Source of the DNA: Bacteroidia bacterium | Lineage (GTDB): Bacteria > Bacteroidota > Bacteroidia > B-17B0 > Aurantibacillaceae | Assembly (NCBI GenBank): GCA_018000995.1 | Contig: JAGNIU010000014.1 | Span: 1 to 64,000, forward strand | DNA: 64,000 nt | Direction of reading: 5' to 3' | Made by a program: the position numbers and the translations under genes | Shown: positions 1 to 3,254 of the stretch, one piece after another | How positions within the stretch are numbered: the first letter of the stretch is position 1 | Layout: each line of letters begins with the position of its first letter | The notes under the pieces: generated by a model | Database searches by the model: none | The model's input: the letters and a program-made list of their open reading frames with translations, nothing else | What the model was told of the DNA's origin: nothing

Positions 1-37
1 ACACGTAGTTGGGTGAAACTGTGTGCCCTCTACAAGT

Positions 38-129
38 GCTAACAGCGGCTAAGCGCCATTTTTGCGCAGTAACGCTCAAATGCTTATCTTAGACTTGCAA
101 AAACGCGCGCCTAGCCGCAAACCGTTAGC
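38..129 (+). other. attC-like site 1 (short form, 92 bp)
   Basis: The site runs from GCTAACA (38-44) to GTTAGC (124-129). Its inner arms pair: GCGGCTA near 45-51 with TAGCCGC near 112-118, followed by further GCGC and poly-T/poly-A pairing toward the loop. The 3' side carries about four extra unpaired bases between the R box and the stem, the same asymmetry as the three other sites. It ends the cassette lying to the left, whose gene is outside the window. It is half the length of the others because it lacks their long inner loop. Confidence 0.65.
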
Positions 130-151
130 GGTAATTTATACGGACATCGAA

Positions 152-595
152 ATGACAATTGACAAAATAGCATTTTCATACTTTTTCCTCCTACTGACAA
201 ACATAGTTTTTGGACAAGTCCAATTTTCAAGCTCACAACTAGACACTATGGTAATTGTTCATCAATATCATTGTGACATGGAAAAAATGGAGTTTCGTCA
301 AGACATTGAGTTAGGTGAAAATCCAATGAAAATTGCTTTTATAAAATGTTACGATAAATCAGGGACCTTAAACATAAGCGGACAAATCATTGCTAACAAC
401 AAAGACGGAATACAATCGGAAATATATTTAGCATCTATTCTAGGTTCTACTTGTCAACTTCAAAAAATTTCCAATTCAGACAAAAAAGGTTTTTTTAATT
501 TCAAAATTTCTACGGACGATTCACAGAGTATATATTTTAAAAGTTTGGGGTATCTGGACCTCGAAATAGCAGTTAATAAAATAAACTACCGCTAA
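152..595 (+). CDS. Cassette gene: secreted protein with a carboxypeptidase-regulatory-like fold (hypothetical)
   Basis: The product has 147 residues. Residues 1-22 look like a signal peptide: a charged start, a hydrophobic stretch SYFFLLLTNIVFG, then Gln, typical of Bacteroidota cleavage. The second half has the spacing of a CarboxypepD_reg-like beta-sandwich: ISGQI, then SDKKGFFNF, then YFKSLGYLDLEI near the C-terminus. An in-frame ATG at 62 was rejected because it lies inside attC1. The stop codon TAA (593-595) lies inside the R'' box of the next attC, so gene and recombination site are fused, as in compact cassettes. No -7 box is seen, so it may be read from an upstream cassette or array promoter. 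The function is unknown and the fold call is an inference from pattern. Confidence 0.7.
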   Translation: MTIDKIAFSYFFLLLTNIVFGQVQFSSSQLDTMVIVHQYHCDMEKMEFRQDIELGENPMKIAFIKCYDKSGTLNISGQIIANNKDGIQSEIYLASILGSTCQLQKISNSDKKGFFNFKISTDDSQSIYFKSLGYLDLEIAVNKINYR

Positions 596-776
596 CACGG
601 GGCAATTACGCAATGCGGGCGGACGAGGTAGTTTTTTTGCTTTGCTTTTGCCCGCCGACGGCGGATCTTTAATTTGTTTAAAGCAAAAAGAAAAACATTT
701 GTATCTTTAATAAAGTTTTCGGCGGGTAGACGAATGATTTTTCAAACCGCACTGCGTAAGCCCCGGGAACGTTAGG
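591..776 (+). other. attC-like site 2 (186 bp)
   Basis: The site runs from GCTAACA (591-597) to GTTAGG (771-776). The stem pairs GGGC, a two-base bulge, TTACGCA and TGCGG (about 600-618) with CCGCACTGCGTAAGCCCC (about 747-764). An unpaired spacer sits only on the 3' side. The loop contains a T-rich/A-rich secondary hairpin (TTTTTTTGC near 632 with GCAAAAAGAAAAA near 683) around the near-perfect palindrome CCGCCGACGGCGG at 652-664, and GGCGGGTAGACGA near 721. It ends the cassette carrying the 152-595 gene. Confidence 0.75.
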
Positions 777-786
777 TGTTATTAAT

Positions 787-1212
787 ATGGCTTTTAAAGA
801 GGAAATAATAAATATAATCGGACCAATATTGCAGAATCATGGATTCTCATTAATCTCTTCCGACTCATTTCTTGTAGAATTTCGTTCCCCGAATTTATAT
901 TTCAGATTCGCCCATAATCCTCGCGAAAATTCCTACTATTATTTCTGTAGACACAAAAATTTCAAGGACCAAGTAGCAGCGATCGAAAACTACCATATAG
1001 AAGAGTTTCTAAACATTAAAAAGGAATTTGGAGCTATGGCCAATAAGGAAAATCGAATCTTAAGTTGGATCGACTCCATTCGCTCGTACTTTGAGTTAAA
1101 TCCTAAGAATTTTCTTGACGGAAATGACGAGCTATATAGAGAAATAGAACTATTTTGGCTACAAAAAATTACAGAATACACGAAGAGTGTATCCGGAAAA
1201 AACAACACCTAA
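787..1212 (+). CDS. Cassette gene: cytosolic hypothetical protein
   Basis: This 141-residue protein has no signal peptide or membrane segment. It is rich in aromatic and charged residues, with a short beta-like stretch (SDSFLVEFRSPNLYFRF) followed by a mainly helical second half (about residues 70-135). I do not recognise the family; small soluble orphans of this kind are common cassette cargo. The ATG lies 10 bp after the R' box of attC2, leaving almost no 5' leader. The TAA stop at 1210-1212 is built into the R'' box of attC3. It could be an antitoxin, immunity or DUF-type protein, but nothing in the sequence decides this. Confidence 0.7.
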   Translation: MAFKEEIINIIGPILQNHGFSLISSDSFLVEFRSPNLYFRFAHNPRENSYYYFCRHKNFKDQVAAIENYHIEEFLNIKKEFGAMANKENRILSWIDSIRSYFELNPKNFLDGNDELYREIELFWLQKITEYTKSVSGKNNT

Positions 1213-1398
1213 CACCACATAAAAGTAATAGCGCTTTTGGTACTCTCACTTTCTGTTTTTCAAATCACTTGCGCTCTACAAAAATTTTTTAAACACTGAA
1301 ATTTATTAAAAAATGTTTTGTTCCGCTTGGTGGGTACTTTTAAGTTCAGTACATTTAATCAAGGCTTGCGCTACTACTTTTATGCGTAGTCCGTTAGC
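1208..1398 (+). other. attC-like site 3 (191 bp)
   Basis: The site runs from CCTAACA (1208-1214) to GTTAGC (1393-1398). The stem is the clearest of the four: CATAAAAGTAATAGCGC (1218-1234) pairs with GCGCTACTACTTTTATG (1368-1384) with a single mismatch. The 3' spacer (GCGTAGTCC) is longer than the 5' one. The AT-rich loop lacks the CCGCCGACGGCGG core but has GGTGGGTAC near 1329, in the place where sites 2 and 4 carry GGYGGGTR. An ORF running from 1313 into the next gene is an artefact of this loop being open. Confidence 0.78.
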
Positions 1399-1408
1399 AG
1401 CAACTTTT

Positions 1409-2197
1409 ATGAGGACTTATAATCTGATCATAATTTTTCTAATGACATTTAAGTTATTTTCTCAACCATGCGGCGGAGCGTATCCCTCTGGCATGTATCA
1501 TAATCACGCTTTTGTTTCATTTAAAGGGGACACCATGAATAAATTAAATAAAGCGGGTTTTTATGAGGGACTACATCTATATACGAATAATGAAAATAAT
1601 CTTTTTAATGATTCGACTACATATACTATTGGCCAATTTTCAAATGGCTTACCAATAGGTGATTGGACTGTACACTGCTCTAATGGGTCTTATTCGACCG
1701 GTCAATTTGAAACAGGAGGAGCGGAAGTTTCTTCCAATTCCGATGGTACGACAACTCAAAAGAAACAAGGAATATATGCTAAAATAGGCATTTGGAAATA
1801 TTATGACAAAGACAGCATTTTAATAAAAACGTTACGTTATGACCGCTCCTTCGACAACAAGGGTTGGACAAACAAAACATATATACAGGATAAACTCGGT
1901 GACTTTGTTTTAATAGACAACGACTTCAATGACAAGCACTCCTTATCCAGTTCATTAAAAAAACAAGTCAGACAAATTTATAATACTGGTGGCAAGCTTG
2001 TTTTATTCGAATATAAAAACTTTTGGAAAGACATCTCAATACAGTATTATACAAACGGACAAATAAAACAAAAATGGAAATGTCAGAAAATTTTTGGACT
2101 AAAAACAAATCGTTCAGTTATTAAAAAATACTCCGAGACAGGTAAACTATTAGAAAAAAATAAAGGCAAATGCTGGACAACCATTATAGACCATTGA
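1409..2197 (+). CDS. Cassette gene: secreted YwqK/MORN-repeat-like protein
   Basis: The product has 262 residues and an N-terminal signal peptide (RTYNLIIIFLMTFKLFSQ). It contains repeats of the MORN/YwqK type: GQFSNGLPIGDWTV, then GIWKYYDKDSILIKTLRYD, then IQYYTNGQIKQKW. The repeats are phrased as field, direction and 'X with new text', as in the two chromosomal MORN-like proteins at 5620 and 12623. The ATG at 1409 follows R' of attC3 by 10 bp; upstream in-frame ATGs lie inside attC3 and were rejected. TGA at 2195-2197 ends 12 bp before attC4. MORN/YwqK repeats are beta-hairpin modules, sometimes linked to toxin-antitoxin partners, but no toxin gene is adjacent. The role is unknown. Confidence 0.72.
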   Translation: MRTYNLIIIFLMTFKLFSQPCGGAYPSGMYHNHAFVSFKGDTMNKLNKAGFYEGLHLYTNNENNLFNDSTTYTIGQFSNGLPIGDWTVHCSNGSYSTGQFETGGAEVSSNSDGTTTQKKQGIYAKIGIWKYYDKDSILIKTLRYDRSFDNKGWTNKTYIQDKLGDFVLIDNDFNDKHSLSSSLKKQVRQIYNTGGKLVLFEYKNFWKDISIQYYTNGQIKQKWKCQKIFGLKTNRSVIKKYSETGKLLEKNKGKCWTTIIDH

Positions 2198-2209
2198 CAA
2201 AAAGCAGCT

Positions 2210-2401
2210 GCTAACACCACATTTGCTCCAGCGGGGGGACGTACAAGTTTTTTGCTTATAATTTGTCCGCCGACGGCGGAATGTTTATTTTTACTATAAG
2301 CAAAAAAAGAGGCAGCGTTTCGGCAGTTTATTTTGTTTGGTGGGTGCAGACAGGAAAGTGTTTCAAAAACCCGCCGGACGCAAATCTGGAAAACGTTAGC
2401 C
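2210..2401 (+). other. attC-like site 4, right end of the array
   Basis: The site runs from GCTAACA (2210-2216) to GTTAGC (2395-2400). The stem pairs ATTTGC, TCC and GCGGG (about 2221-2236) with CCCGCCGGACGCAAAT (about 2370-2385). The 3' spacer is extended, as in the other sites. The loop repeats the core of site 2: GTTTTTTGCTTATA, then CCGCCGACGGCGG at 2267-2279, then ATAAGCAAAAAAAGA, then GGTGGGTGCAGACAGGA near 2339. Core chromosomal genes start 137 bp downstream. A minus-strand ORF covering 2083-2412 is only a shadow of this site. Confidence 0.75.
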
Positions 2402-2537
2402 TCACCTTTCAATTACACCCTCTTCTTTCCTGTTAACATTTACTAAAATTGTTAAAATGTGACCTGGTTTTGTTCCTTATCGGGATTATTGGCATTTACC
2501 GTTTAAGCTTATGTGTATCTTCCTTAAAAATAGTAAC

Positions 2538-3254
2538 ATGAAAAAATTATTTACACTTATTCTGCTTTTGGTTTTTGCTTTGGGATATTCTCAAAGCACA
2601 ACCGGCTATTACGAATGGTTAGTGCGCGGTGAGATTAAAAAAGAAAAATTAAGCGCTGCAAAAGAAATGACCGACATCATTCCTAATTATCCTAAAAACT
2701 ATTTTGGGAATATAGTGAATTACGTTTCTGTAGAAATTTCCGGTACTTGCAACGGAACGTCTTTTACTTCAATTGCTACAAACGAAATTCTTACAACGGA
2801 ACAAAAAACTATTTTATCTACAGCCGATTTTGGTACCGATCTCACTTTAAAAATAAAATTTTCTTACAAAGATTCTTCTAATGATGTTTACGGTACGGGC
2901 GGAAGAATTAAAGAACTAACACCATTAGCGATTACAGTAATGCCTGATACAGAAGCCCAATATCCCGGCGGAGACAATTCGGTTATTAATTATCTTAAAG
3001 AAACAGTGATGAAACAAAGTACCGATACCAGCGCTGTGAAAAAAATGATGAACGCCATTGTGAATTTTACTATTGATGAGGAAGGAAAAATTATTGACGC
3101 AAAAATTTTACGGTCGTCGAGTGATTCGAAAATTGACGAACTATTATTACAGGCAACTAACAACATGCAAAAATGGATTCCCGCACAAAACGCGAATGGT
3201 ATAAAAGTTAAACAAACGTTTAGTTTTCCTACTCGCAGAAATGCCGGTTGCTAA
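2538..3254 (+). CDS. Secreted protein with TonB C-terminal domain
   Basis: The product has 238 residues: a signal peptide (residues 1-19, ending GYSQ), a unique middle region, and a TonB_C-like domain from about residue 135 (EAQYPGGDNSVINYLKETV, then VNFTIDEEGKIIDAKILRS, then MQKWIPAQNANG). In canonical TonB this domain contacts TonB boxes of outer-membrane receptors. Here the usual transmembrane anchor and Pro-rich linker are missing, so this is a periplasmic orphan TonB_C protein, common in Bacteroidota. The ATG at 2538 was chosen over 2511 because it gives a clean signal peptide. It is followed 16 bp downstream by a heme lipoprotein gene. Confidence 0.8.
   Translation: MKKLFTLILLLVFALGYSQSTTGYYEWLVRGEIKKEKLSAAKEMTDIIPNYPKNYFGNIVNYVSVEISGTCNGTSFTSIATNEILTTEQKTILSTADFGTDLTLKIKFSYKDSSNDVYGTGGRIKELTPLAITVMPDTEAQYPGGDNSVINYLKETVMKQSTDTSAVKKMMNAIVNFTIDEEGKIIDAKILRSSSDSKIDELLLQATNNMQKWIPAQNANGIKVKQTFSFPTRRNAGC

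Follow-up and report, generated by a model that had tools for sequence, protein, structure and literature searches.

A cassette array in a Bacteroidota genome as the probable 3' end of an integron with an XerA-like recombinase lacking the I2 domain

Integrons of the IntI type, both those of class 1 and sedentary chromosomal ones (for example in Vibrio cholerae), consist of an integrase gene, an attI site and tandem cassettes of one gene each, and their strand-uniform arrays carry attC sites with complementary R boxes and a G^TT crossover. CALINs possess attC sites and cassettes without intI. XerA-type recombinases act on dif, and the family that describes them, NF040815, bears the name 'site-specific tyrosine recombinase/integron integrase'. 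According to PMC7790495, IntI turned to single-strand recombination when it acquired the I2 helix, and the additional I2 domain is credited to Messier and Roy 2001 in PMC2426708, a study in which intI genes were accepted only if they possessed this domain. Because integron surveys search by this IntI-specific insert (the criterion in PMC2426708), a system without it would be invisible to them, which may partly explain the apparent rarity of integrons in Bacteroidota. A complete integron has been reported from Salinibacter ruber, and In0 elements from Bacteroidetes (PMC9024848); they were found by canonical IntI profiles, which would miss the system described here. In the open-access papers searched, Bacteroidetes integrons are described only by way of canonical IntI (PMC9024848, PMC9668308) and no integron integrase lacking I2 is reported, and an earlier description is not excluded, subscription journals and preprints being outside the scope of this search. 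Here, we present evidence that a cassette array in a Bacteroidota draft genome is very probably the 3' end of an integron array, belonging to a lineage that possesses an XerA-like recombinase without I2 rather than IntI.

The window, by which we mean the whole 64,000-nucleotide stretch of DNA analysed, corresponds to C68, one of the 77 contigs of a draft genome. In positions 37-2401, three cassettes of one gene each are set between four attC sites, all on the plus strand (Table 1); taken alone, this segment resembles a CALIN in having attC sites and cassettes with no intI. An earlier note on this DNA had recognised four sites, a single gene on one strand between each pair, and an array entering the window from the left; all of this holds, the array running off the left end. 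On the 3' side of the site 4 crossover (2395) lies chromosome, with a TonB-domain gene at 2511-3254. Sister genomes, in which the right flank is poorly conserved, yielded no empty site for the array.

Table 1. Positions of the attC sites and cassettes in the window.
Feature	Position	Strand	Description	Detected by
attC site 1	37..130	+	94 bp; crossover G^TT after base 124	stem scanner, covariance model
attC site 2	590..777	+	188 bp; crossover after 771	fold, stem scanner, covariance model
attC site 3	1207..1399	+	193 bp; crossover after 1393	fold, stem scanner, covariance model
attC site 4, last of the array	2209..2401	+	193 bp; crossover after 2395	fold, stem scanner, covariance model
Cassette 1	125..771	+	TT of site 1 to G of site 2	
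Cassette 1 gene	152-595	+	147 aa; N-terminal signal-like stretch; faint CarboxypepD_reg likeness	
Cassette 2	772..1393	+	gene 787-1212, 141 aa orphan	
Cassette 3	1394..2395	+	gene 1409-2197, 262 aa	

The covariance search for attC that had been proposed for the window returned the four sites with 47.5, 35.3, 39.3 and 39.5 bits, respectively, the best unrelated match in the window scoring 20.1; these sites were themselves among the training sites of the model, and its E-values are only rough. A separate stem scanner assigned them scores of 57, 50, 45 and 48, and in 256 kb of Markov-shuffled control sequence the best eight scores were 42-53, none of them with the 1/5 or 2/6 spacing seen in the four sites. 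When folded, the bottom strands give imperfect hairpins that outperform almost every shuffled version (z about -2.8 to -3.4). Each site has a TAAC/GTTA R box with 1-2 unpaired bases after AAC and 5-6 before GTT, in agreement with the claim in the earlier note of extra unpaired bases on the 3' side. The large size given there (186-192 bp) applies to sites 2-4 and not to site 1, and the sites can be called unrelated in sequence only in part, the centres of sites 2, 3 and 4 being partly alike. Site 4 has a 97% identical counterpart in the sister genome G053. None of the three cassette genes has a Pfam match over the cut-off; that of cassette 3 encodes a signal-like stretch at its N-terminus, bears a faint likeness to MORN_2 and yielded only a weak MORN-repeat relative in a contig scan.

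The R' at the start and the R'' at the end of a circular cassette form one attC, and the two are therefore expected to be complementary. The sequence GTTAGCGGTA at 124 is complementary to R'' of site 2 over 10 nt, GTTAGGTGTT at 771 to R'' of site 3 over 10 nt, and GTTAGCAGC at 1393 to R'' of site 4 over 9 nt, whereas each cassette start matches the R'' immediately preceding it over only 5-6 nt. Relatives, from which 121 attC sites were taken, have the same arrangement: at least 8 nt of the predicted complementarity is observed in 61 of 70 neighbouring pairs (87%; neighbours lie less than 1400 nt apart) versus 10 of 121 comparisons within a site (8%). Random pairs exhibit it in 4% of cases, and the observed mean was reached in 0 of 5000 draws. 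At the level of sequence, the complementarity at cassette boundaries is direct evidence of recombination at G^TT. The attC stems also covary, with 86.7% of cells paired versus 62% after shuffling and 24-33% when the alignment is slid by 1-3 columns, and with double changes at 12 of 12 L-stem pairs; this alignment had been fitted to the covariance model. With stem covariation, a G^TT that can be read at the cassette boundaries and no transposase-like ends seen at the attC sites, the earlier reading of the locus as a chromosomal array of integron cassettes in Bacteroidota is borne out.

The intI that had been expected to accompany the array is not in this genome; the IntI profile matched just three proteins there, two of Xer type and a recombinase of 377 aa (C12:14394-15527), none of which reaches the cut-off. 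In sister genomes, arrays start behind a recombinase of this C12 type, and we use the name BacInt for the approximately 380-aa XerA-like tyrosine recombinase that heads them. As the recombinase is on C12 and the array on C68, their connection in the present genome is inferred from those sister genomes. Three array right ends (C36, C56 and C68) are present for a single attI, and the window array may thus be a secondary cluster.

A search with a PWM trained on the region that follows the BacInt gene located an attI-like site, with the consensus TATAA(A/G)nnAG^TTA, in 54 of 61 loci, at a median of 99 nt past the stop codon (quartiles 94-103); the same search matched 3.8% of shuffles and 0 of 5 Xer controls. 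Integrase and array are both present in 16 loci, and in every one of them a G^TT behind the integrase marks the start of the first cassette, with complementarity to the first attC over 7-10 nt. This start is the attI motif in 15 of the 16, and 14 of these are the script's first motif match; G053 has its first cassette at a motif further downstream (+772), and the second G003 copy has it at a GTT (+139) that carries no scored motif. Every attC lies downstream of the integrase, with 0 found upstream in the available stretches of these 16 loci, and none was found near the Xer controls. Concatenated attC sites used as a query revealed dense arrays within the genus, and a covariance model built from six sites of the window's own genome alone returned 64 candidates in 253 kb of relatives, among them 23 sites in 27 kb at a contig end of G053. 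In G053 the longest ORF is on the array strand in 21 of 22 cassettes, a uniformity shared with IntI integrons. Array sizes are lower bounds, because draft assemblies break inside arrays. Two further genes were noticed around the integrase. On C12 a GIY-YIG gene, conserved in G054 and G056 (84% identity), lies upstream of it with hairpins with CTGACGTTGGACTCTCC...AGTCCAACGTCACAC ends on both sides (L005 630-1190), and an ORF6N/KilA-like gene with GGTGTCGCAAAATGCGACACC-type repeats is situated between integrase and attI in this genome (L005 2322-3255) and in G053 (L065 3778-4551).

BacInt comprises a SAM-like core-binding domain (PF13495, E 3e-15) and a catalytic domain (PF00589), and the six residues of the RKHRHY active site are all intact in 56 of 56 aligned rows, which cover the Bacteroidota group including Rufibacter, Pontibacter and three outlying XerA-like proteins. 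At the position of the I2 insert each of these 56 has 9-10 residues in place of the 49 of IntI, so that BacInt fails the IntI criterion of an additional domain; it likewise fails TIGR02249 (>265 bits), scoring 203.9 bits in an alignment split around the missing insert. The closest NCBI family is the XerA equivalog NF040815 (219.3 bits, cut-off 220), and the closest solved sequences are archaeal XerA proteins (5hxy, E 1e-42; 4a8e, E 2e-38). Unlike XerA, BacInt is associated with attI and attC arrays and has an added N-terminal domain, most copies having about 80-100 additional residues there; this domain shows weak likeness to DUF5710 in 9 of 24 members (best E 2e-4) and to HARP in 2 of 24 (best E 0.009). 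In a quick tree with long branches, 51 Bacteroidota integrases form one group (SH-aLRT 94) and IntI another (99), and their mutual order is unresolved. The system departs from IntI integrons in an integrase that lacks the insert, falls below the IntI cut-off and carries an extra N-terminal domain, in a BacInt gene that runs in the same direction as the array, and in a typical attC spacer of 1/5, compared with 5/6 in aadA1 of R100.

BacInt is present in 56 of 87 genomes of the family, covering 9 of 10 genera, and contigs often end shortly behind the gene. Across the phylum it occurs in 45 of 392 genomes from 24 genera (E <= 1e-75); these carriers have the same attI, and several have attC arrays. 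Two Chryseobacterium plasmids carry BacInt and attI, one of them with a 38.5-bit attC, and a Rufibacter plasmid encodes a longer BacInt relative and has short, classical-looking attC.

These data bear on several other explanations of the array. Long hairpins between co-oriented genes could also be transposon ends or transcription terminators that flank single genes by chance, but neither predicts the complementarity at G^TT boundaries, no such ends were seen, Rfam contains no family matching these attC sites, and a free best-stem fit places the spacer at 1/5 in 96 of 108 sites; this explanation can practically be set aside. It is very doubtful, though more readily conceivable, that the array is an ordinary CALIN, its cassettes derived from a canonical IntI that was lost or acts in trans and the XerA-like gene a mere bystander. 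CALINs are common in bacteria (PMC9668308, PMC9024848), and a few Bacteroidota do possess canonical IntI, including G414, which has it together with BacInt, so that a foreign IntI could move these cassettes. However, the profile search detected no IntI over the cut-off in the genus and only one among the 87 family genomes, far from the 56 that carry BacInt. This single IntI, in G043, was considered as the source of the cassettes and rejected, being on a 6.6-kb contig in a bin with 6% contamination and accompanied by attC of another kind. IntI over the cut-off is also absent from 11 of 12 further BacInt genomes (G414 is the exception), several of which are single contigs (e.g. G003, G173, G178, G180 and G454). 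Moreover, relatives have a dedicated non-IntI recombinase and attI heading such arrays, which a CALIN would not: an attI in fixed position behind BacInt bears the first cassette boundary, and all attC lie beyond it.

We also consider it unlikely, without discounting it, that the arrays are fossils, made by BacInt long ago and with no movement of cassettes today. Some BacInt copies are indeed broken, as is the fragment in G057. On the other side, several contigs of the window's own genome end only a few bases from G^TT, a pattern to be expected from the coexistence of different cassette orders, although this rests on no population or time-series data. C12 terminates 0.9 kb downstream of the recombinase gene, exactly at attI (...CCTATATGGGA/GTTA); C56, on which a further array has two attC sites of the same kind, has a contig end that begins exactly at GTTATAGG; and bases 1-127 of the window are identical to the end of C36, the two contigs diverging right after GTTA, where C68 enters a cassette and C36 a chromosomal hydrolase gene. 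In addition, the gene of cassette 2 has no match among 100 related genomes.

An integron headed by BacInt remains the preferred reading. Characteristic features of integrons are met by attC sites of conserved structure and variable sequence, by cassettes that are bounded by G^TT and have R' complementary to their own R'', and, in relatives, by an attI that adjoins the integrase and bears the first cassette; the corresponding contig of the window's genome ends at the G-TTA of attI. Insofar as sequence comparison can establish them, attC structure, crossover, cassette boundaries, attI position, gene order and the absence of IntI from most of these genomes are observations, whereas the activity of BacInt as the recombinase of the arrays is an inference made without a recombination assay. 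BacInt would recognise the folded bottom strands of attC as asymmetric hairpins with the TAAC/GTTA R box, a use of single strands that is likewise inferred and supported by no assay, and would cut them at G^TT. Circular cassettes would then be joined to attI at TATAAnnnAG^TTA, about 100 nt behind the integrase's own gene, and cassettes would also be excised, shuffled and inserted elsewhere in the chromosome. That the N-terminal domain of about 80 aa, with its weak DUF5710/HARP likeness, stands in for I2 is a further inference. A broader proposal, which we hold to be a serious possibility and no more, is that an XerA-derived recombinase with a DUF5710/HARP-like domain in place of the I2 helix gained the use of folded single-stranded attC, founding a second, separate integron lineage in Bacteroidota that is a source of resistance cassettes (such as blaVEB-3 and perhaps tet(X)), which later reached Gammaproteobacteria. 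If BacInt does recombine attC, the rule that single-strand recombination needs the I2 helix falls, and the system would offer a natural comparison for the evolution of single-strand recombination. It would also constitute a route of gene capture, possibly linked to mobile resistance genes, in a phylum abundant in guts, fish farms and wastewater. That arrays of this kind in many Bacteroidota stand behind a recombinase without the part regarded as essential for integrons suggests a second, largely overlooked means of bacterial gene capture.

Several observations were made at loci outside these arrays. Near the canonical IntI of G414 (L306, C1:3143001-3163000) there are two attC-like sites of about 217 bp that the covariance model missed; their spacer is 2/6, and the idea that spacer asymmetry is unique to the BacInt lineage was therefore rejected. 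Two IMG/VR viral contigs (L159 3069-4980 and L165 184-5653) encode a relative of the catalytic part and have attC-model matches upstream on the opposite strand, a layout unlike the order of integrase, attI and array described here. The Klebsiella michiganensis plasmid NZ_CP084417.1 (L291 2200-2400) contains a BacInt relative (46% over residues 129-377) whose end lies about 75 nt ahead of ATATTAGGGAG/TTAGCGGTAATTTAAC. Next comes blaVEB-3, in the manner of a first cassette of such an integron; no attC was found after blaVEB-3. On Acinetobacter plasmids (L292 and L305), the 'xerD' of xerD-tet(X)-ISCR2, a known module (PMC7530245), is a truncated BacInt relative (49% over residues 149-377). These plasmids have a degenerate attI and yielded no attC; tet(X) follows GTTATGTGCCATTTT, a start shared with a G052 cassette. 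Finally, the Flagellimonas plasmid NZ_CP092416.1 (L244 1624-1757) has a 25-bit attC-like match that adjoins a dihydrofolate reductase gene and lies near erm(F) and a short xerA.
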